Shown here in pieces: positions 15,374 through 63,340 of a DNA stretch of 64,000 nt. Numbering within the stretch: position 1 is the first letter of the stretch; every line of letters starts with the position of its first letter. The position numbers and the translations under genes are program-made. The notes beneath the pieces were generated by a model. That model worked only from the letters and a program-made list of their open reading frames with translations, was not told the origin of the DNA and did not search any database. The stretch is from Populus alba (taxonomy: Eukaryota > Streptophyta > Magnoliopsida > Malpighiales > Salicaceae), in contig NC_133301.1 in assembly GCF_005239225.2 (NCBI RefSeq), positions 687,001 to 751,000 on the forward strand. The letters are read 5' to 3'.

Positions 15374-18300
15374 TCAACAACTATCTACTGTTTCTGCTCT
15401 TTTAGCTCCATTTGTGTCCTCGCCATCCGAATCATGGAGAGGTGGCTGACGTTTCAAACTATTAGGTTTTGTTGAAATCTCTTCGCTCGAGAATGAATGA
15501 ATACTGCCATTTACTTTGATATCCTTTGCAACAGCAGAATCTGATTCGTCCATAACTGTATCTGAATGGTCCAAGGAGTGCTCTATCACAACAGCTTCTG
15601 AATCAAGTGCAGCTGAGGAATCCTTCTTTAAGTCAGAAACCCCCACTGGAATCAAGGAACTGGAGCTGGAATCAATTCCATTCATATCCTCTGGAACTTC
15701 ATGAATAATCCCAGAACTCAAAGCATCTGGTATGTCCCTAGGATCCTCCTCCATAGCAGATGAAGATAACTCAGAATTATGATTAACCCCTGAATCTTCC
15801 GCGTCTTTCATGTCAGCTTTAGATGGCGACTCATTTTCACAGGATGAAACACCCTTTGAAACCGCTGTGCTTGAATCAAAATTTACCACAGCATCCTCAT
15901 GACATGCACTTCCAAATTCAGAATTTCTACTTTCAGGTGCAGGTGCTAGGAACCCAGAACTTGTGGCATCCGTTGACTCCATTGGTGAAAGGTGTCCAGC
16001 TGGTTTCTCTGTGCAGGAGTCTAATTCTACTTTCACGATTGATTGCTGCTCCTTTGAGGGCTCAATGGTTCTGAGACATGATGGTCGAACAGAAACCCTG
16101 CCCAACATCAAGCAAATATAGTCTTTAGAGCACACCCAGAAAGCATTTACAGAAAAAAACAGTGCTGCATTTGAACATGAGATGCTTGTATGCCCCAATT
16201 CAGATCAACAAATCGCAGTATCATTCTGCTGTACAATTCTTCTGTCACAAATGTCATGAAGCTTAAATAAATGTTTCCAACAAGGAAACCAAAAATTTCA
16301 ACATTCTTTTAACATAAATTAAGAATTAGAATCCGCCTTTTATGCTTGTTTTTTCCTGAAGTTCTAATACCATCAAGTTTTGATGCCATGGTTTTAAAAT
16401 GTACGCATGGCTATGAACTCCGAATTATCTACTTCGCCAACAACTGGGTTATAGCAAGCTAAATACTATATATAAGCAAAGCAAATGTTGCAGCAGTCAT
16501 AAATAACCATCAGGCATTAAACTGTATACCTGCTGTATAAAAGCATATAGGCTCCCTGAGAAAGCACCTCATCCAATTCAACACTAGAAACCTGAGAAAG
16601 CCAAATCCACAGTCAGAGGAAAACAAGGCCAAGTAGATTGCAACATCTTAGCTATCTTGCTTTGCTGTAATAATGATGGCATCGCAATATTATAAAGCAG
16701 GAAATCATTTCTTACACTAAACTTAAATAAATAAGCAAGAAAGTTTCACATTATGATTTTAAAAAAATTAGGCTACCAATCCTCACAAGTTACAGTTAAT
16801 AGATCAAATTAGAAGTACATAAAGCATGTGCATGCACACTCACACACACAGAGCGAGTGAGTTTATACCTTAGAGTCATCAATTCTGTGCCAGTTTCCAC
16901 GGAAATCCTTGGTGTAGCAGATGTAATGACCAAAAAATGATGCATTTAGCATGTCAACATGGACAACAACTGCATAAAGCTTGTACACATCTGTGCCATC
17001 TCCTTTTTCACTCATGTAGGGGCTCAGATCTAAAGTCTCAGGAAAAGTTACCCTTTTGTTAAGTTTACCAAACCTCCCACTCTGCAAAGGTATGTCCACA
17101 TACAATTTCAGAAGATATAAAAAAACTCTAGAACTAGAATATCACAAACTTGATGAATTTTCATAGAAAAGGTAGTTAAGATTCAGAAAGGTAATAACGA
17201 GGTGGAGATGTCTGTAACCATAGAATGTATACAAATCTGACCTGGAATCTCTTTAACGCGATTGTAAGAACATTCGGAGCTCGTTGAATGGTAAGACGCT
17301 TCCATGCCTTGACATAGTCATTACACCTATAAACAGTATAAAATTGTACCTTAATCAAAGCAGATGCACACGTCAAAAGATATTAAGTGCAGACTTGTGA
17401 TCCATTTCACTGCTATCCTTGTTCTATTAAATTCTGCTGGACTCCAACTATATTGGAAAATTTGCATGAAAAAAGGAAAGATTCCATGACAAGACATATT
17501 TCACTTTCAATTATTAAACCATCAAGACTTCATGCCAAACTATCTGGAGTTGGATTATTAAACCTTAACAAATCATCCTTTCATTCTGTCTGATCTAGGG
17601 CCATATTTGAGCATATTTAGAGACCACATCCTTACAACTAAGAAGTCATTTTCATTCTACACGTCTACAGAAGCCATATTTGGCCACGGTGAGTGGATTA
17701 CATTGAACATTTAGTGAGGCAATTGTAATGTCCGTGTTAATTGTGCCAGAGCAGAAATGAAGATCAATTAACCAATAAGCACATTTTTTCCCTTTTTTTA
17801 TAATACCAAACCAAAGAATGACTAGGAAGAAAAATAACACACTACTTGACTGAATTCAGCATCTACCATCTAGCTGCCTATCTTTTCTCAAAATGCAAGG
17901 GAAGAAACATTTGCTGAAACCAACAAACCCCATCACCATCCATGGAAAAACAACTCCTCAAGACTCACATCCCAAACTGGCTGGATCAAGATAGATGCAC
18001 ATGCTTCTTCCATGCAGTCTAAGCCATACCAAAATTCATATTTCAATTGCAGCCACCTCCATCAAATTTCATCACAATTTAAAATTAATAGTTGAGTTAT
18101 AACAAGAGTGGAAGAATCCAAGATGACAAAACTCCTAGTCAGTCACTTAAGAGAAAGATGGCAAATAAAAAATAGAAAATAAATAAATAAAGATTGTGTG
18201 CAGAATGAAACAAATATGGTGAAGAAATGCAAACAATAAAGTAAATGATTTAAGCTTTTGGGATTCAGAAATCACAGGATTAAGCAGCCATACCCATCAC

Positions 18301-21300
18301 ATTTGTACATATTTTCTCCATGGAGCCATTCTTTGTCTGTGAATTGATTGAGGCATTCCTCCAAGGATTCAGCATCACCATGAATCTCAACAGTTAAATC
18401 CATCATGTTCTCAAACTGATTTGAAATCTTATTGCATTTTGTACATATCACCTAAAGAAGACGAAGCATGTTAGGACAGCATCCCAATCTAAAGATAGGA
18501 CTAGTCCAATCATTTTAGAAAGTTTCAATAAAAGAAAGCCATATTTGCATATATGCCAAAACAACAAGGAAAGATTCATCACATTGCTAAACAATCTTTC
18601 TCATGCTAGACAATTCTAAGTGAGAAGCCTGCTAACAAGAAGAACAACAGTATATGCATTTACTAGAATAGTGCCAAAAGTTTTCTAAAAGACATTTCGA
18701 ACAAACAAAAGGATCAAAGTGCCTGATAGTTTTCCCACATCCTCTGGATTTATTTCTATCTACTGTACATGGGAAACCTCGTCGAGGGCATTGGTATTGC
18801 TGCTCTGTTAAGTCTTTCAGATGCAAAACTTCTTTTATTTTCTTCATTTTAAATAAGTAGAAGAAGGTGTGATCAAGATAGGCAAACATTTCTAAGCCAC
18901 TTCTAAATTGGCATTTAGCTTTTCTTCTTGCATGTGATTCCTGTATAAAACAGGGGCAGAAAAGCGAATGCCAATTTTTGTTTCATGTCAACCAGCACCA
19001 GATATCAGACTTCTAGAGAACAGCTCAGTTCAAGAGTCCATCAACTTCTTTTTTTTTTTTTGTTTACTATCTGTAATGACTAATAACAGAAAAGGATGAC
19101 AAGCTCTGGATAATGTCATGACAGTGGAATTCAATACAGTATATACAAGCTGAGGAAAAGGAGTTTTCACAAACAAGAACAAAATCAAACAGCTTCAGTA
19201 TAACAGGATGCATGACCTGAGATTGGAGGCGACCCCCAAATATGTGTTGAATTATTGTAGTCTCTTGGGAGGCAGGTTCAACAGCTTTTTCTCCACCAAA
19301 TTCATCAAGGCAAACTGATTGCATTGTATCAATAGCAAACCTGCAGAAAAGACAGAAAAAAGCTTACAATATTGAGCTGGGCATAGCATCAAACACAACC
19401 ACAACTTATTCTCCAGTCAATCACTTTCTTCAACTTATCCTTCCCTGTTATTATATTTGGAGTGTGACTGTGTTTTGGGGTGGGGGGTGTTTATCTAAGA
19501 AAAGAACATGGGTAGAAATTATGTAAACCAGATGAAACATGGGTAGAAAATATGTAAGAGAGTTGGCAGGCCAGTAACAAGAACCTCATGAACTCATGAG
19601 CATCCTCCTGTCTTCCATAGCCAAGATTACCACCAATATTGCGTAATCGAGACAGGATATTCATCGGTGAAAAAGGAAGTGCACTTTGGCTTGCACTTTC
19701 AACATGGGATTGAAATTCACAAAGAAAACACCAATCATTATGTCTACCTGCAAAGCAAAGATGAAAAATTGTGAGAGGGAAGAATTGTCCAAAGCAGCCC
19801 CAGAAAGGAGGACAGAGGGGCCATATATAATTACAATTTCTAAACTTACATTCTCTTTGATGACTTTTCTCCAACAAGTAGGCAACAAGTGGCCTAGTGT
19901 AAGTGAGACATTGCAGAACCACATTGGCAAAGCAACTGTGCAGCAAAAGAAAAGGAAAATTGAATAAAAAAAGAATACGTGCCCAGGTGAAAAATATAAC
20001 ACAACTAACAAATGTTTATGTCTGTGCCCATGCATAGTTTTTGCTCAAATGAACAAAAAAGGGGTGTGAGGATCACAAACACATACCTGTTTCCACAATT
20101 TATGAGCCCGCAGGGAGGGAATCTGGGTTTGTCTGAGTTGTAAAGTTTAATGAATTCATCATACGGGAAAAGAACCTTGAATAGAAGTGCATGTTAATGT
20201 TTTCACATTGCAGAACAAGAATTCACTAAATAATCTAAATAAACAACTAAATGAAAAAAAGTTAAAACATATACCTTTCCTGGCTTCTTTATAGGCTTAG
20301 AGTTAGAACCTCCGCTGGCAGGAACAAGTGCAATGCTAGAAAAACTTTTGCTCCCACCACCTGAAGGTTTAAAACCAAAGTTTGATTTTGCTGTTTGTGA
20401 TGAGTTTGCTTTGAAATCCTTGCATTTTAACTTATGGCCTGCTTTCCAGTGTGCTTCTTGGCATCCGTGTGAGCTGGGCAAAGGCAAAAGGAACAGTTGT
20501 ATAATTTATGATGCTGAAAAAAGAAAGAAATATGCACCTAAAACCCACATATTAAACTTAAATCTCACTGAAAAGGATAGGCAAACCAAAAGAAAAAAAT
20601 CAATGCATCAAAAATATAAACTTAAAAATAGACCTAAAAATCCTAGATGTAGAAGGCAGTACAAAAACACACGACCAATTATGAGGAAAGATAAAAACAC
20701 AAAACAGGTAATTAAACCTTCATCATCAAATCATTAAAAAGTAATAGCATATTATATCATAACCTACTATTTATACTTCCAATGTTGTCTCCAATCGCTA
20801 CAAATATTATCTTCTTGAAATAAATCATCTATGAATAGATAGCAGTCCATCAATTACCCTAAAATCGCTAATTAAGTTGCAAACCAATTACATCACAAAT
20901 GCTTAAGGCACAAAACCAAAGAACAGGATGAACCCAGCAGTTTCTAAGCATAAGAAACCATCTTAAACACAAAATAACACATTTTTAACCAAACCATAAA
21001 AAACAACCCCCCCACCCTCTCCCCTCAGATTAAAAAAAAAAAAACACCAACAACAACACTCATACAATTAATTACTTACAAATCACCAATTAAGCGGTTA
21101 AACCAAAAACCATAAATGATTAAGCTCACAAAACCAAAAGAACTACACAAATGCAAAATTCCCAAATTCAAAAACCATCTTCAAAACAAAAAGGATTGCA
21201 TTTCTACCAACAAACCATCTAGCACAAGCTAGATCATTACTCTCTAATAACTGATTAAGCTAAAACATGCATAATTAAGCCAAACCGTCTAGCACAATCA

Positions 21301-22414
21301 AGTTCACTACTTGCCCTACTGATCACTAATTAAGCTAAACCTATTCATTCAGCACACAAAAATCAAATGAACCCCAAAAGAAATCACCTATAAACTTTAG
21401 TAACCAATATTAACAAAGACTCAATTCATTCTAATACAATTAAATTACCCTACAATTACTAATTTAAGCACACATCCATTCAAACCATACATAAATAACC
21501 TACAAAAACCAGCAGAACAAGAAAAACCCTGGTAATTTCCAGATGTAAAAGAGCACCTTCACCACTATAAAAACTTAATCAATTCCAAATGCCCCTCCCT
21601 CGTATCACTAATTTGGCCACCAAAACAATAAAACATATACAATTAACCAACAAAAACAAAAAACGATAGCATTTTTACCCCGAAAACAAGAACCCTCAAA
21701 AACCACCAAAAAAGAACCATAACTACAATTAAGCAACAACAAAACATCAAGAAACAAATCGAGCCATGCAGTTATTTACAATTCAAATCACAGTTTTAGC
21801 TTCAAAACCCAAAAAACAACATAAACCCATTAATTCCCAAAATCATAAGAAACAAAACAAGATTGCTATTTGACCAAGACCCAGAAAACAAGAAACCTCA
21901 AAAACCCTAAAAAACTTAAAAAAGGAACCATAACTTCAATTAAACAAGAAAACATAAAGAAACTAATTGTGTACCACACAATTAATTACCCTACAAATCA
22001 GTAATTTAGCTACAAAGCCAGTAAGACCATATAAAATCACCAAAATAACAACAAAAACCCATTATTTTCCAATATCAAAAGAATACAAAACAGAAAACCC
22101 AACAATCAAGAGCCCAAAAAAATAGCAAATACTTACCAATATCTCACAGATTTGCAACGAGAACACGTTTTAGACCCCGAATTGCCACAATTAACACAAC
22201 GAGAAGAATCCTCTTCAGCTTCCATTGTCTGGTTACCAATACTTGGATCAATAACAGTGTGGTTACTCTCAGCCGCTTCGAAATTGGCGTCGACCTCGAA
22301 ATACTTCGACGCCGTATTCTTAACGAGGTGTAACAAACCTAAACCTATTACAAAGACAGTGAAAATAAATTGTAGTAACCAATTCAGATCCACTGTTATT
22401 CCACCGACATGCAT
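15374..22414 (-). CDS. UBP18/UBP19-like: Ubiquitin carboxyl-terminal hydrolase, UBP18/UBP19-like, MYND type
   Basis: Eleven coding exons, minus strand: 22414-22137, 20473-20275, 20175-20087, 19935-19850, 19747-19585, 19340-19217, 18451-18294, 17326-17242, 17081-16869, 16591-16530, 16097-15374. They join in frame to 726 residues, all with GT donors. Order: hydrophobic helix ~11-32 (membrane anchor); MYND zinc finger with C73, C76, C84, C87, C93, C97, H106, C110; USP domain from ~180. The Cys box is '[14 protein letters not shown]' with catalytic C190, followed by '[12 protein letters not shown]'. Paired CxxC zinc ligands 'ICTKC' and 'YKCDGC' sit in the insert. The His box has '[11 protein letters not shown]' with H446 and 'WHRIDDSKV' supplying Asp. 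All catalytic residues are present, so it should be an active cysteine deubiquitinase. The last exon adds a ~240-residue Ser/Asp/Glu-rich tail, probably disordered. A partial duplicate lies upstream at 27.9-29.4 kb. Confidence 0.93.
20474..22136 (-). other. Long intron 1 of the UBP18/19-like gene
   Basis: 1663 bp, A-rich on the plus strand. Its 5' part (about 21730-22136) is clearly similar to intron 1 of the chimeric paralogue (28800-29154), and its 3' end (20474-20570) matches the end of that intron. The chimera's intron lacks the middle ~1.1 kb. Donor here is TG|GTAAGT. Confidence 0.8.
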
Positions 22415-23035
22415 CTACACTTTCCTTTTTATTCTTATTCTTTTTTGCATGCATTAATCGATGATTTTTTTTTCTTTATTTTTTATTGTTTACACGGGAA
22501 ATGGGTATTTTGAGAGTAGAGAAAGGGTGTGTTTCCTTTTGTATTTGGAGTTTCGTTGTTTTATTAGGGTTTTTTTAATTCCCTTTTGGTGTGAGGGATT
22601 TGGGGATTTTTTTTCTTTTGCATGGAAATAAGGTGGGTTGATTAGCAGGGTAGTTAATTATTTGCTAGTAATTAGCCTCAGGGTCCGTCTGTTATCGCCT
22701 TATTTGTTAATAATTAGCGTTATCGCGGCTTATCGTTGCGGTGTCAAATGGGTTATTAGCGTATAATTAATATTGTGATAATCTTTATAATTACAATTAA
22801 AAAAATAGCATAATAATAAATAAATCTAAATTCAAAACGATGAAATACTTGAGAATTTTATTTTTTTATTTTTTGGAACTTGACAAAGATGGGGTTGCTT
22901 AGCTGAAAAGAAAAAGAAAGAAAGTACTGGTTTTTCCCCCCTTTCTTCCCTTCTAAGCTATGCCTTTTAGTCGAATGCCTTCAACTTGGGAGTGCTACAT
23001 GAAAGAAGTGACAAGTGAGAAGACTGTACTGTATG
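22415..23035 (-). promoter_or_regulatory. Upstream region of the UBP18/19-like gene, shared with its duplicate
   Basis: The sequence just upstream of the ATG (to ~22450) and a block at about 22865-23030 ('cttagctgaaaagaaaa', 'tcttcccttct', 'acatgaaagaagtga') match 29415-29460 and 29630-29800 upstream of the chimeric gene. The duplicate therefore carried promoter-proximal DNA. No TATA box was assigned. Confidence 0.5.
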
Positions 23036-24230: not shown

Positions 24231-26100
24231 ACTAAGAGGTTTTGAATTGAGGAACACAAAATGAATTAAACAAAAAAATAATAATAAATCGAATGTTGTG
24301 ACTTAACCTTTCAAAACTTTGTAATCCGAGTTACAGATTCAACCAAATTCAATACTTTTTTATATATATAATTCTATAGTTAACCTAAATATACTTTTTT
24401 AAAAAAACTTTAAGGACCAAAACATAGGCCAGTAATGTGGGTCAATGGGCTTGCACCCTGAGCTTGTGAAAAGGAAGATCCTGGACATTTAGGCACTCAA
24501 GTCTCTAGGCCTATATGGGCCTTTATTTTTTATTTTTTTTATTTAAAAGGGTGGACAATATGTTATTCGTCCCTATTTTTTTATATAAAAAAAGACAAAT
24601 GACTTGTAATCGCTGTGGCAGATGACATTTTATGTTCAAGCTTAAAATTCAACCATCATTATGGTGACTATAAAATTAGCTCTTTGTGTTTTTTACAAAA
24701 AATAAAAACCTCATTTTAACCTAAAATCACTCTTAAAATATCAACAAACCAACATATCAACCTAATAAGCAAAAAAAATGTTCAAATAAAAAATCAACCT
24801 AAATAAAATTTCTCTTTTCTCTCTCTATTATGGATTTTAGTGACTGTCTCTCTCTTCTCTCACTAAAAGAGACTTGAAAATGATATTTAGTACCAAAATA
24901 GAATTTTTGACAACTAAAAAGATCAACCATTTATTAACTAAAAAAGATGGGGGGGGAGACTAAATTTTTTGTACAAAATTCAAAGTTGTCATGTATTTTC
25001 TCCTTGTTTTTCACTTTGTCCTCTGTGTTTCAATTCCGCCCTCTCTAAAAAAAAAGATGTGATTAGCTATTAATTTGAGCTTAAAATGGTCTAATTGTGA
25101 AAAAAAATGTACACGGATCAAATTGAAAACTTAGAAAAAGTTTACTATTCCAATTCATAGTGATTTGTAAGAAAGTGCACAATGCAACTTTAACCGTAAA
25201 ATCACCACACAACTTGGTTATTTTTTAATGTGGTAATTTAAGGTGCTTTAGGACTAAAACCTACCAAATTGTAAATATTTCTATGAAAATACAAACCTTA
25301 AAGACAATAGTATGAGCATACTTCTCCCTTTCTATGTTAAAAATCATCATCTTAAAAACTACTAAAACATAAATCAATTATAATTAAATTTGATGGGTTA
25401 ATTACAATTCAATTAGATATGATGTTATGAGTTTTTGTAATTGTGCTAACTATGATATATATTAAAAGAAATGACTCGTAAAATTATGTTCTTATGCAAG
25501 AACATATGTTTCAATTATAGTTGTCACATTCCATTCAGGAACTGACCCAAAAAATAGATTCAAGTGTTTTGGACTATTAGGCTCGTAAAAATCAAATGGG
25601 TCAATTATAATTGAATTAGAGGGGATTCAATGAGTTTTTTTTAATTTTAATTGTGCTAACTATGATATGTATTAAAAGGAATGACTTGTAAAATCATGTT
25701 CTTATGCAAGAGCATGTGTTTCAATTATAATTGTCACATTTCATTCAGAAACTTACCCAAAAAATGATTTGATCTATTAGGTCATCTCAAATCAATCATT
25801 TTTATTAAAATCAAAAAGTTTTTTTTTATGTTGATTAGACCGAATTTAGATGGTATAACCAGGTTTGATTTATAGTAATGTAATTGAAAAGATAGATTAT
25901 GATAATTTTCTTCCACTATTGATTTTAGCTAAGATGGGGCAACACAATTAATTGATTGATTTATTGGTATAGGAATTTTCATGTATGCATGTGCATATTT
26001 CATTAGTGTTTTCTTTAAAACTCATAAAAATAATCAAAGTCAATTTCATTTTTCTTTATTAAACCATGTTAAGTAGGGCAATATTAAAGACTTCTTTGTC
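23622..26100. other. AT-rich intergenic sequence between the two UBP-derived genes
   Basis: No coding region supported. It contains an (AT)n tract at 24176-24237 and a diverged tandem duplication at 25385-25790. 24380-25330 has the texture of degraded LTR sequence, but no boundaries could be set. Confidence 0.5.
25385..25790. repeat. Diverged tandem duplication, ~204-bp unit
   Basis: Units start near 25385 and 25588 and share 'taattgtgctaactatgata', 'gttcttatgcaagagcat' and 'caattataattgtcacatt' with scattered changes. Confidence 0.8.
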
Positions 26101-26129
26101 TTCTAAAAGGATGATTGTTTAAATGATCC

Positions 26130-26400
26130 TATTATCCTTTTCAAATTATTATCAATATGTCATTATAAAAAATAAAATTGTCAATATACAATAATAGATG
26201 TCAATTGTCACAAAAAATATAAGACAATAAGGAGTTTTGAGGAAAGAAATTGAGAAATGACAAATACTATCATATTAGGCAAAACTAAAAACTAGTTGAT
26301 AGGTTTAAGTAGGTGTGAGATCAAGAAAATCTTAGCAAGCTAAATAGACATAACATTGGCTTAGTCATGCGAGTCATGACTAGTTTGGGGCGTTATGTGT
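26130..26400. repeat. Distal part of the segmental duplication (copy A)
   Basis: Similar over ~250 bp to 29910-30185. Shared strings are 'caatatgtcattata', 'tcaatatac', 'ttttgaggaaagaaattgag', 'agttgatagg' and 'gtgactagttt'. Both copies lie upstream, on the same side, of the two UBP-derived genes in the same orientation. Confidence 0.7.
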
Positions 26401-26649: not shown

Positions 26650-27440
26650 TTCCATAGACAACGACGATTGACGAGTCCTAAAATTCAAGATGCTTAGGAA
26701 TAGGACTACTATATTAGACAATTGGATAATCTTTTAGTTCAATTTGATCCATTTTCCCTAACTAAGGTGTATGGTGGCTTGATATGAAAAACCCAAGTAG
26801 CTGGTAGCTAGTAGTGTTTAGTAAGTCAAGGTGACTAGTAATTAGTACCTGCAAAAGATCTCATTTGCTGGATGTGAGGACTCTTCAATACTTCAGTTAA
26901 TAATTTTATAAAGAGAGAGAGTGCAATGATATTTTAAAAAGATAAATTATTAAAATATGTATACTGAAAGTGCTAAGAATGAAGAGATTGTGAACATTTG
27001 GTTTGAATGATTCAAAGTGTATTTATAACTCAATAGTCTTGTCTTTTTGTGGAGAGAAAGGATTGAAGTGTAATTTCACATTTGTGATATTTTTAGTTTT
27101 ATTATACTCAAAATAATATATATCATATCAATATAAAATACTAAGGAATCTACATGGAGTCTTGAAAAAAATTGTAAAGGATAGTTTGACTCGTGCAAAT
27201 TGGTATTGGGATGCGTGCTTATACAGAAAAATTAATTGGGTTCGGGTGTAATACCTGGACTCAGTAAAAGGTGTTGGTGCGCCTAACATCTTAAGTGACT
27301 GGATATAGACGTTATGCTTAAACATAGTTGGTGGTACTGGCATGCCAAGCACCCTTAATTTTTACTGGCATGACAACATAAGCTCGGTTTCATTATGCCC
27401 GAGTTCATGCATCTTGATAGCAATTAGGCTCGGGCTTAGT
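26650..27440 (+). repeat. Dispersed repeat, possibly a solo LTR (copy 1, inverted relative to 62.6-63.3 kb)
   Basis: Matches the reverse complement of about 62590-63340. Shared strings include 'gctaagaatgaagagattg', 'aaaaacccaa' and 'ttagtacctg'. Its length and end-to-end pairing with a distant copy suggest an LTR. No polyprotein adjoins it and no target duplication was identified. Confidence 0.55.
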
Positions 27441-27503: not shown

Positions 27504-27922
27504 AACTTTTCATAAGATTTTTGTACCGTTAAATTTAGATACAATATCTTTCAATTCTTCAAAAGTCACCCTACCTATATTACGTCCTCCCACCCAAACA
27601 TGGTGCTGGAAAACTGGAAGAAGCAAAATATGGATCCGTCATTTGCTATACTTTTCGTTGAACATTTACTACACGTTTCTTTCTTACAAGGAATGTACAG
27701 TTATCAAACAAGTAAATAAAAGTACGCAAGAAAACCAACCTGTGAATTAAGTAGGGATTCATTCCTTGATGCCACAGATAGCTAGCATTGGTGCACCTTT
27801 AGTCTTAACGGAATTTATACTTGGAAAAAGCTCACAGATCAAAGATGTAAAGATCAAATTAACCAAATATTCTTACAAATCAATGCCAGATCCGTTTTAC
27901 TCAGGTGGGTCATGTCCGCTTT

Positions 27923-29414
27923 TCAGACAGCATAAAGCCTTAAAACTTGGTTTATATTGGATCGGCAAACTGGGCAAACACCTTTCTTAGCTTTGATCTC
28001 ACTCAAACAAGCCATACAACCAGCCATGTGACCACAAGGATTGCATGCACCTTCAACAGGAGCCTCCCAGCATATTATACATGAAGAAGCACCTCCTTCG
28101 TTCACATGATCACTTGTTACAGAAGCTCCACGCTCTATAGCTGGAACAGACAACTCCGGTGGACTAAAATCGATTGATGGATGATGGATAGGCTCTTCAT
28201 CGAATGCCCCATCTGGAATTGGCGGAGCTGATGGAGCTGATGAAGTATTTCCACTACTTGTTTCAAAAACATGACCTTGACTGCCACTTGGCCCCATATT
28301 AGGCACACCCCATCCGTTGTAGTCTTCTCTTGGTGCCTCATCCATCCATCCACCGCCGCCTGCTGCTGAATGCGTGGATGCAACAGCTGCGCCCCATCCG
28401 TTGTAGTCTTCTCTTGGTGCCTCATCCATCCATCCACCGCCGCCTGCTGCTGAATGCGTGGATGCAACAGCTGCGCCCCATCCGTTGTGGCTATCAGTAC
28501 CACGCACAGGATCTTCCCAGAAGTTTGGATTGGTTACTCCAGGCTTCTCTATAATAGGCTTAGAGTTTGATTTTGCTGTTCGTGACGAGCTTGCTCCGAA
28601 ATCCTTGCATTTTAACCTATGGCCTGCCCTCCAGTGTTTTATTTGGCATCCCAGTGAGCTGGGGAAAAGAAGACAAGAACAACCATATACAGTATACTTT
28701 ATGCTGCTGGAAAAAAGAAAAGAAAAGAAAGAAAATCTGCACCTAAAACCCACATATTAAATTAACTTTAAGATTGCAAGCTAATTCAGCAACAAGAAAT
28801 CATAAAGAAACAAATCATACCATGCAATTACTTGCCCTTCAAATCACTATTTTAGCTACGCAACCCAAAAAACAACACGAACCCATTAATTCCCAAAATC
28901 ATAAGAACCAAAACCAGATTGCAATTTGACCAAAACCCGGGAAACAAGAAACCTCAAACACCCTAAAAAAGTAGCCATGAAAACATAAAGAAACAGATTG
29001 TACCACACAATTAATTACCCTACAAATTACTAATTTTGCTACAAAACCATACAAGATTACCAAAAAACAACAAAAATCCATTATTTTCCAACATCAAAAG
29101 AATCCAAAACAGAAAACCCAACAATCAAGAACCACCCAAAATGGAAATACTTGCCAATATATCACAGATTTGCAACGAGAACACCTTTGAGTCCCAAAAC
29201 TGCCACAATTAACACAACGACAACAACCCTCTTCAGCTTCCATTGCCTGATTAACAGTACATGGATCAATAACAGTGTGGTTACTCTCAGCCGCTTCGAA
29301 ATACTTCGACGCCGTGTTCTTGACGAGGTGTAGCAAACCAAAACCTATTACAAAGACAGTGAAAATAAATTGCAGTAACCAATTCAGATCCATTGTTATT
29401 CCACCGACATGCAT
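27923..29414 (-). CDS. Chimeric gene: UBP18/19 anchor + MYND finger joined to XBAT34/35-type RING
   Basis: Two exons, 29414-29155 and 28658-27923, join in frame to 331 residues. Residues 1-110 copy the neighbouring UBP gene: hydrophobic helix ~11-31, then a complete MYND finger (C67, C70, C78, C81, C87, C91, H100, C104). The USP catalytic domain is absent. At about residue 120, after 'SKPIIEKPG' (parent 'SKPIKKPGK'), the sequence changes to a Gly/Trp/Ser/Pro-rich linker with two perfect 28-residue repeats, then a C3HC4 RING from C280: 'CIICWEAPVEGAC', 'PCGHMAGCMAC', 'GVCPVCRSNI', ending 'QVLRLYAV'. All eight RING ligands are present. This end resembles XBAT34/XBAT35 E3 ligases, without their ankyrin repeats. 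The predicted protein is a membrane-anchored E3 with a MYND protein-binding finger. Intron 1 would need a GC donor (TG|GCAAGT). Expression is unknown; the frame is fully open. Confidence 0.8.
28308..28475 (-). repeat. Two perfect 84-bp tandem copies inside the chimeric CDS
   Basis: 28308-28391 and 28392-28475 are identical base for base by eye. The next 15 bases start a third copy and then diverge. Because 84 = 28 codons, the frame is kept and the linker segment 'GWGAAVASTHSAAGGGG' plus 'WMDEAPREDYN' is doubled. Zero differences implies a very recent duplication or ongoing slippage. Confidence 0.95.
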
Positions 29415-30185
29415 CTACACTTTCCTTTTTAATCTTGTTGTTTTTTGCTTGCATTAATAAATTAGTAGTCAAGATTTTTACCATTTAGTATTCGTTTTTT
29501 TTCCTTAAAATATATTAGCCGATAAATTAGTAGTTGTTCTTGTTTTTTTTTAATGACTTAAATAGATTTTCTTTTCTAAAATAAACGTGTTGACTTTTTT
29601 TTTTTTAATCTTCATTTCATTTTTGTTTTTGAACCTGACAAATATGGGTTTCTTAGCTGAAAAGAAAAGGAAGAAAATACTGAATATTTTCCTTTCCCTT
29701 TCTTCCCTTCTGGGCTTTGCTCAAGTCGATTGTCTTCAGCTAGGGAGTGCGAGGTCTGACGCTACATGAGAGAAGTGACTATGGAGAAAGACTTCTGACG
29801 TCTTGAGGTGACTGCTTACGTCTTGAGGTGAGGGGCTTGCATGGAAATAATCTTTGCTTGGTTAGGTAATAATCTGTTGAAGTGATTAAATCTAGGACAA
29901 ACCCATTAACCTATTCAAATTATTGTCAATATGTCATTATAGGAAAATGTTTTTTTTTTTTGTTTTGTCAATATACAGTAATAGATATCCAAGGCCACGA
30001 AAAAAGAGAAGAAATCGGAGAGTTAATTTTGAGGAAAGAAATTGAGAAAAGACAAATAATATCATATTGGGCTTTATTTTTTTTGAAAGCATTAGTTGAT
30101 AGGCTTAGAAAGGTATCAGACCAAGAAGATTTTGGAAGAGACACAACATGGGCTTAGCCATGGGAGCCGTGACTAGTTTAGCTAT
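28546..30185 (-). repeat. Segmental tandem duplication of the UBP 5' end (copy B)
   Basis: Exons 1-2, parts of intron 1, the 5' flank and a distal block at 29910-30185 all match the UBP gene and its upstream DNA (20275-23035 and 26130-26400) in the same order and orientation. Copy A is longer because ~3 kb of repeat-rich DNA lies between 23.1 and 26.1 kb and ~1.1 kb of extra DNA lies in intron 1. Confidence 0.8.
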
Positions 30186-62589: not shown

Positions 62590-63340
62590 AGAAACGTGCA
62601 CTCACCTCCAGTCCACACGTAGCGCCTCAACCCAACTAATCCACACGACGCAAGTCTAGATGGTCTCGGCATAACAGGTAGACCCATTTAATTAGAGTGC
62701 TGGGCACGCCGGCACCTAATATTTTAGGGGTTCTGAACAAGCATCCTAGCATCTTTATGAACCCGAAGATATGTCTCGAGCTCAATATTTTAAAAAAATA
62801 ATTCTAGTATATTTTTAGTATTTTATTTTAATTCAATACATTTTATTTATAGGAGAATATAATTCAAAATATCACAAAGATGAAGTTACACTTTAAATCC
62901 CTCATCTTTATAAAAGGATAAGATTTATGAGTTATAAATACCTTATGAATTCTTTAAGTTTTAGGTTCACAATCTCTTCATTCTTAGCTTTTTTAGCATA
63001 TATATTTTGAGAGTTTATCTTTAAAATATTATTAAATTTTTTCTCTTTACAAAGTTATTAACTTAAGCAACAAAGAGTCCACACATTCATCAAAAATAAA
63101 ATAAAATTCCAGGTACTAACTACCAGACACCACTTGTTACCAGCTGCAAACCATTTGGGTTTTTTATATCAAGTTATCAAACATATTAGCTGGAGAAAAT
63201 TAATGAGACTGCTTAAACTAAAAGATAATTCAATTATCTACCTAATCAATTTTATTTTTAAACATTTTAGATTTAGGAATTATCAACTACTATTTCATAT
63301 AGACTAAGAGTCCTATAAAATTTTAGGTACCATTTTCTTC
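62590..63340 (-). repeat. Dispersed repeat, possibly a solo LTR (copy 2, inverted relative to 26.7-27.4 kb)
   Basis: Reverse complement shares ordered blocks with 26650-27440. The blocks are best conserved around 'gctaagaatgaagagattg' (62970-63000 on the minus strand). Confidence 0.55.

Follow-up and report, generated by a model that had tools for sequence, protein, structure and literature searches.

XB3-like (XBAT) ubiquitin ligases are defined as having at least two ankyrin repeats (available text of PMC3596331). XBAT35.2 carries two PSAP motifs, binds the ESCRT-I subunit VPS23A, places K48 chains on VPS23A and affects ABA signalling, and the deubiquitinases UBP12 and UBP13 act on VPS23A and stabilise XBAT35.2 (available text of PMC13043654). 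The MYND domain is described as a protein-interaction domain common to UBP15-19 (available text of PMC11236618 and PMC11546300).

In this study, we analysed a gene of Populus alba in which parts of an XBAT34/35-like and a UBP18/19-like gene are combined. The gene lies on the minus strand at positions 29414-27923 of the window, the 64,000-nt stretch C18:687001-751000, and encodes 331 amino acids in two exons, with a hydrophobic N-terminus, a MYND finger, a Gly/Trp linker and a C3HC4 RING in this order. The sequence itself shows both parents, a join that is in frame, a similar divergence of the two halves, an open frame and the zinc ligands. We lean towards the explanation that this is a young fused gene whose frame looks maintained by selection and which is predicted to encode a RING ubiquitin ligase anchored in the membrane, and we regard this explanation as somewhat probable.

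Gene structure and the two parental loci

The frame of the chimera consists of 331 codons with zero internal stops and has the C-terminal end QVLRLYAV. Exon 1 (29155..29414, minus strand) contains the start codon, the hydrophobic segment (residues 13-31) and the MYND ligands from C67 to C81; the C87 codon is split by the intron, with its first two bases in exon 1. It is followed by intron 1 (28659..29154, minus strand) with 496 nt and GC-AG borders (GCAAGT ... CCCCAG), and by exon 2 (27923..28658, minus strand), which contains the rest of the MYND finger, the linker, the PSAP motif, the RING, the tail and the stop codon. Using Pfam, zf-MYND (PF01753) was found at residues 67-104 with 38.0 bits (cut-off 22.7), given the GC-AG splice, and zf-C3HC4_3 (PF13920) at residues 278-325 with 45.7 bits (cut-off 27). 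All MYND ligands (C67, C70, C78, C81, C87, C91, H100, C104) and all RING ligands (C280, C283, C295, H297, C301, C304, C315, C318) are present. Gene model and Pfam thereby confirmed the initial annotation of an open 331-codon frame with all zinc ligands kept, with the correction that C87, and with it the full set of eight MYND ligands, arises only if the GC donor is spliced. Neither the USP catalytic domain (PF00443) nor ankyrin was matched in the 331 amino acids (Pfam, E <= 0.001); the XBAT protein P0011 has ankyrin. Because the USP catalytic domain is absent, the chimera is not expected to remove ubiquitin.

Judged by homology, the 5' part arose by tandem duplication of the neighbouring UBP18/19-like deubiquitinase gene (15374..22414, minus strand; exon 1 22414-22137, exon 2 20473-20275), here called the sister, whose P. 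trichocarpa relative P0124 carries MYND and USP domains. The homology includes upstream blocks, covers exon 1 as well as parts of intron 1 and extends into exon 2 of the chimera, with DNA identities of 83, 77 and 80% in the three best-scoring blocks (gaps counted). The exon 1 regions match in two blocks with 94% and 88% identity, and exon 1 of the chimera is 6 amino acids shorter than that of the sister. The UBP-derived part of exon 2 (28538..28658, minus strand) reaches from the MYND remainder through KSNSKPIIEKPG; relative to the sister it has an in-frame deletion of an internal 26-aa block and ends one codon short of the parent exon end. Thus, the initial view that exons 1 and 2 of the sister were duplicated stood for exon 1, minus the 6 amino acids, and had to be restricted for exon 2, which was only partly copied. 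Intron 1 is a shortened copy (496 nt vs 1663 nt in the sister, where it has GT-AG borders), and the splice donor is GC (TATTG/GCAAGT) in the chimera and GTAAGT in the sister.

Further upstream, the block 29620..29793 (minus strand) matches the sister-side positions 22863-23025, and the block 29902..30179 (minus strand) matches 26128-26386, collinear with the duplicated UBP 5' end and with 47 mismatches at 251 ungapped sites. When 285 nt from the left copy (26128-26386) were searched against the genome, only two places were returned, namely 26128-26386 and 29902-30179. In this direct repeat we probably see the upstream portion of the tandem duplication of the UBP gene, the sister side being longer by approximately 3 kb. 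We considered that an LTR element had captured the gene and rejected this, since the genome search gave only these two copies of the flanking repeat and both are collinear with the tandem duplication. Two other repeats were noticed in the window: a direct repeat of 121 nt (25435-25555 and 25645-25765; 91% alike) between sister and chimera, and an inverted pair (26715-27144 and 62815-63240; 73% alike), possibly a dispersed element.

For the 3' half, a genome search with the RING half yielded, among the best candidates scored, an 80% match at C5:20940138-20940701 and weaker matches on C8 and C10 (51-58%). The C5 locus at 20.94 Mb matches an XBAT34/35-like protein exon by exon, including the ankyrin region, and its linker, PSAP and RING are all located within the single last coding exon. 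The XBAT-derived part of exon 2 (27923..28537, minus strand), comprising linker, PSAP, RING, C-terminal tail and stop, has 82-83% DNA identity to this exon, and the aligned blocks of chimera and C5 gene have 82, 85 and 83% (gaps counted in both cases). Downstream, the 3' UTR and 3' flank copied with the exon (27547..27922, minus strand) form two blocks against C5; the C5 match reaches approximately 765 nt past the C5 stop, with stretches missing between the two blocks. According to these alignments, linker, RING, stop and approximately 376 nt beyond derive from the last exon and 3' flank of the C5 gene. The join of the two parts is located at 28538/28537 and is in frame. Because the aligned blocks match both parents at 77-85% DNA identity, the origin of the chimera is not due to chance. 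The initial annotation had likened the RING to the C-terminus of XBAT34/XBAT35 and proposed a search for its donor; the likeness was borne out and the donor was identified at C5:20.94 Mb. Also, a Gly/Trp linker and a RING indeed take the place of the USP domain, the linker being part of the XBAT last exon and no separate addition.

Retroposition of the XBAT half was not supported. A run of 22 A (27503-27482, sense strand) is located approximately 43 nt beyond the homology end (27547), the copied part of the parent is one exon, and the stretches missing from the 3' flank have no clear intron ends as judged by eye. A DNA-level copy is the simpler explanation.

Transcript evidence, age and distribution

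A single assembled sequence, P0004 (source lgn, single member), crosses both the splice and the UBP-XBAT join. It starts with FSLQICDILLTEMP; the spliced chimera yields FSLQICDILLTGMP in the same frame and the unspliced chimera does not, and the same stretch, FSLQICEILLTRMP in the sister and FSLQIREILLTEMP in the UBP paralogue on C6, does not fit P0004 in either case. The starting frame FSLQICDILLT fits the spliced chimera, with one residue just beyond differing from the window. P0004 then shifts into the MYND frame within an A-rich stretch, continues over the join and is identical from VPNMGPSGSQGHV onward to the ordinary XBAT P0011 over 139 residues. An assembly switch in P0004 is likely, because chimera and C5 share 39 identical nt exactly at the switch point. 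The junction-spanning evidence that the initial annotation had called for was therefore obtained in part: P0004 crosses splice and join, but its frame is shifted and its 3' end is of XBAT type. It supports, without proving, splicing at the GC donor and transcription across the join, but not a correct full-length mRNA.

That the join itself is an artefact of assembly or annotation, which had been named as a possible refutation, is hardly credible. Chimera and C5 are identical over two stretches, one of 39 and one of 64 nt, which are able to mislead short-read assembly; however, both parts differ from their parents throughout (dS ~0.14, noncoding distances 0.10-0.24), so that a misjoin of the present loci cannot give the chimera, and P0001 and P0003 have the same join with differences of their own.

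P0003, a cluster of 33 members, reads out of the intron into exon 2 and has a Met of its own. Transcripts that retain the intron or start internally could accordingly yield the functional product, a shorter RING protein devoid of anchor and MYND finger, i.e. a soluble PSAP-bearing competitor of XBAT34/35. Within the XBAT half, the RING is conserved best (dN/dS 0.35 vs 0.81 in the linker) and the PSAP motif is kept, as would be expected for such a protein. However, P0003 may be genomic DNA rather than RNA, the intron-to-exon-2 frame of the window has no Met before the linker, and the anchor, which would be unused, looks constrained (see below). We consider a short RING product quite improbable.

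The synonymous distances of the chimera from its parents are similar, with dS of 0.135 for the UBP half (bootstrap 0.062-0.234) and 0.137 for the XBAT half (0.076-0.22), which fits one event and is not proof of it. The UBP paralogue of the sister on C6 (L026, C6:24031500-24041000), presumably derived from the Salicaceae genome duplication, has a dS of 0.284-0.294 from the sister (C6/C18 pair) and 0.339 from the chimera. By these distances, the fusion would be roughly half as old as the C6/C18 pair.

Among the matches listed in the database searches (best 120 of 199; 8 of 8; best 120 of 132), the join was seen only in P0002, which is identical to the chimera, in P0001 (both Populus), in P0003 and in P0004. 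The Salix matches P0005-P0008 (S. suchowensis), P0009, P0125, P0127, P0141 and P0238 are of XBAT or UBP type and have no join; some are partial models, and these matches do not prove absence of the join in Salix. The distribution fits, and does not prove, an origin of the fusion within the poplar lineage. Thus, the suggested search for the architecture in other Salicaceae gave two Populus proteins, P0001 and P0002, and none among the listed Salix matches inspected. Our literature searches for this combination found no paper on such a protein, in line with the initial statement that none had been described. A predicted RING-type domain protein, A0A4U5Q498_POPAL (UniRef; n=2, Populus), does exist and is identical to residues 8-331; this automatic entry, in which no functional description was seen, is taken to be the same gene on the basis of this identity. 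Hence, the architecture appears new among the proteins covered here, while its parts are known and a predicted entry exists.

Apparent constraint on the fused reading frame

Each of the 9 coding indels has a length divisible by three, so that none breaks the frame; 3 of them lie in the UBP half and 5 in the XBAT half, and the ninth is the tandem duplication. They were counted in protein-guided alignments, which would hide a pair of compensating shifts. In aligned noncoding DNA, 5 of 16 indels are multiples of three. Neutral evolution was simulated for an unconstrained frame of chimera length, using divergence and indel rate from the same alignments, the noncoding indel rate leaving out two large gaps of the 3' flank. 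Of 4000 neutral runs, 2 still had an open frame when half of the pairwise divergence was placed on the chimera branch; the fraction rose to 1.2% for a quarter and to 17% for a tenth of the divergence.

The dN/dS ratios of the halves, a check proposed by the initial annotation, were 0.75 for the UBP half (bootstrap 0.35-1.66) and 0.69 for the XBAT half (0.37-1.39); both intervals include 1 and neither value is significantly below it. For the UBP half, changes on the chimera branch were counted with the C6 paralogue as outgroup (126 shared codons, 3 ambiguous sites dropped). The whole half has 6 synonymous and 19 nonsynonymous changes, which equals the neutral expectation. These are unevenly distributed, with 4 synonymous to 1 nonsynonymous in the anchor vs 2 to 18 in the rest of the half (Fisher p = 0.005, for a comparison picked after the counts had been seen). 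Compared with the sister, the anchor has 2 nonsynonymous and 4 synonymous differences in 38 codons. The MYND finger differs from that of the sister in 11 of 38 residues (14 nonsynonymous and 2 synonymous differences), and all 9 of its changes on the chimera branch are nonsynonymous, a 9:0 split that has a 13% chance under neutrality. It nevertheless retains all eight ligands, which 11 or 9 random changes would miss with p = 0.045 or 0.088, respectively. Between the RINGs of chimera and C5, there are 4 nonsynonymous and 3 synonymous differences; assigned to the chimera side by family consensus, 2 amino-acid changes stand against 8.3 expected (p = 0.01).

From these counts, anchor and RING look constrained and the frame looks maintained by selection. 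Several of the same data would also be expected for a chimeric pseudogene, i.e. a real fusion whose function was lost or never existed and whose frame is still open here by chance: dN/dS is not below 1 in either half, the chimera branch has 6:19 synonymous to nonsynonymous changes in the UBP half and 0:9 in the MYND finger, the donor is GC, the RING carries the unique exchange I293N, P0004 contains a frame shift, and Pfam gives no MYND match in the gene model of P0001. The in-frame indels, the rarity of neutral runs that stayed open, the apparent constraint on RING and anchor, and P0003, in which the exon-2 frame and all RING ligands are kept, argue against it; a late or slow decay is still compatible with the simulation. 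We therefore treat a pseudogene as a serious possibility, albeit a doubtful one, and continue with the explanation of a maintained fused gene.

Predicted function and comparison with known systems

Residues 13-31 have a hydropathy of 2.29 (Kyte-Doolittle). In the AlphaFold model of P0002, residues 3-36 of this protein form a helix, with mean pLDDT of 90-97 over residues 1-30; the whole-protein model has a mean pLDDT of 51, is poor outside the N-terminal helix and was not used for the fingers. The N-terminal helix is predicted to be a membrane anchor. Because the anchor is nearly unchanged from the sister, a location common to both proteins is plausible. The listing of UBP18 and UBP19 as nuclear, with an asterisk of unexplained meaning, in a table in the available part of PMC11236618 counts against a membrane location, and the word 'transmembrane' does not occur in the available text of PMC11236618 and PMC11546300. 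No activity, membrane or binding data were found for the chimera.

The linker contains a tandem repeat (28308..28475, minus strand) of two exact copies of an 84-nt (28-aa) unit. This unit is present once in the C5 parent and in P0003, five times in P0001 and several times in the Salix XBAT P0005, so that the linker is a length-variable Gly/Trp repeat. P0002 has 8 and P0001 has 17 GW/WG pairs; a role as Argonaute hook would be a guess, and the Argonaute-hook literature found does not mention XBAT. The PSAP motif (residues 229-232; 28223..28234, minus strand) corresponds to position 222 of P0002. Of the 116 relatives with a parsed RING, 115 have a PS/TAP motif upstream of it, the exception being P0115.

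The C3HC4 RING identified by Pfam (residues 280-318; 27965..28081, minus strand) was modelled as a monomer with a mean pLDDT of 76. Its Asn293 (codon 28040..28042, minus strand) ends the first strand of the modelled RING and is replaced by Ile or Val in all other parsed relatives: among 116 proteins with parsable RING (7 of 123 were not parsed), 101 have Ile, 14 have Val and 1 has Asn, namely P0002 with the same sequence as the chimera. P0001, P0003 and P0004 have Ile. Because I293N is unique among the parsed RINGs, ligase activity does not appear secure; some active RINGs, such as that of Cbl, are polar at the matching position, and a loss of activity through I293N is not certain. In a Foldseek search with the RING model, IDOL and MEX-3C were the best matches (E ~3e-4), followed by cIAP and MDM2 (2e-3 to 1e-2), and the sequence match to the RINGs of MEX-3C, MDM2 and cIAP2 extends into the C-terminal tail. 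Several of the RINGs of IDOL, MEX-3C, cIAP and MDM2 are dimers, and dimeric RINGs with an activating tail have an aromatic residue beyond the last ligand, close to the C-terminus. The end LYAV of the chimera has this feature, and an end of the form [YF].V is found in 109 of 116 parsed relatives.

For the steps beyond gene structure, we infer the following mechanism. The hydrophobic N-terminus would anchor the protein with the remainder in the cytosol, and the RING would dimerise via its C-terminal tail and work with an E2. As has been reported for XBAT35.2, the PSAP motif may dock VPS23A of ESCRT-I, or else another UEV protein, and ubiquitin would then be added at the site of the UBP18/19 anchor, wherever this is. 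The diverged MYND finger, the presumed partner-binding part, might bring a changed partner. The initial annotation had suggested that ubiquitin is added at the site or to the partners where the sister removes it. The shared location is plausible, but shared partners cannot be assumed, because the MYND finger differs from that of the sister at 11 of 38 residues. The PSAP motif, which came with the XBAT half, is a more specific lead to a substrate. A far-reaching version, in which a lineage-specific poplar E3 on the UBP18/19 membrane is docked by PSAP to ESCRT-I, ubiquitinates VPS23A, opposes the neighbouring deubiquitinase and retunes endosomal sorting of ABA receptors, is in our estimation unlikely.

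The locus presents a new gene composed of two modules of opposite sense in one pathway, for which parents, join and relative age are readable. It shows a docking motif and a RING moving jointly beside a new N-terminus, and the chimera permits a direct test of whether the MYND finger or PSAP sets the target.

With IDOL, MEX-3C, cIAP and MDM2, the chimera has the RING fold in common, a likeness known for the RING alone. With UBP18/UBP19, it shares the hydrophobic N-terminus (MHVGGIT.DLNWLLQFIFTVFVIG), the MYND finger, the exon 1/exon 2 boundary and the upstream blocks; the USP catalytic domain of these proteins is missing. With XBAT34/XBAT35, it shares linker, PSAP, C3HC4 RING, a tail ending in Y.V and the 3' flank; in contrast to them, it has the anchor and MYND finger instead of ankyrin repeats and carries I293N in the RING.
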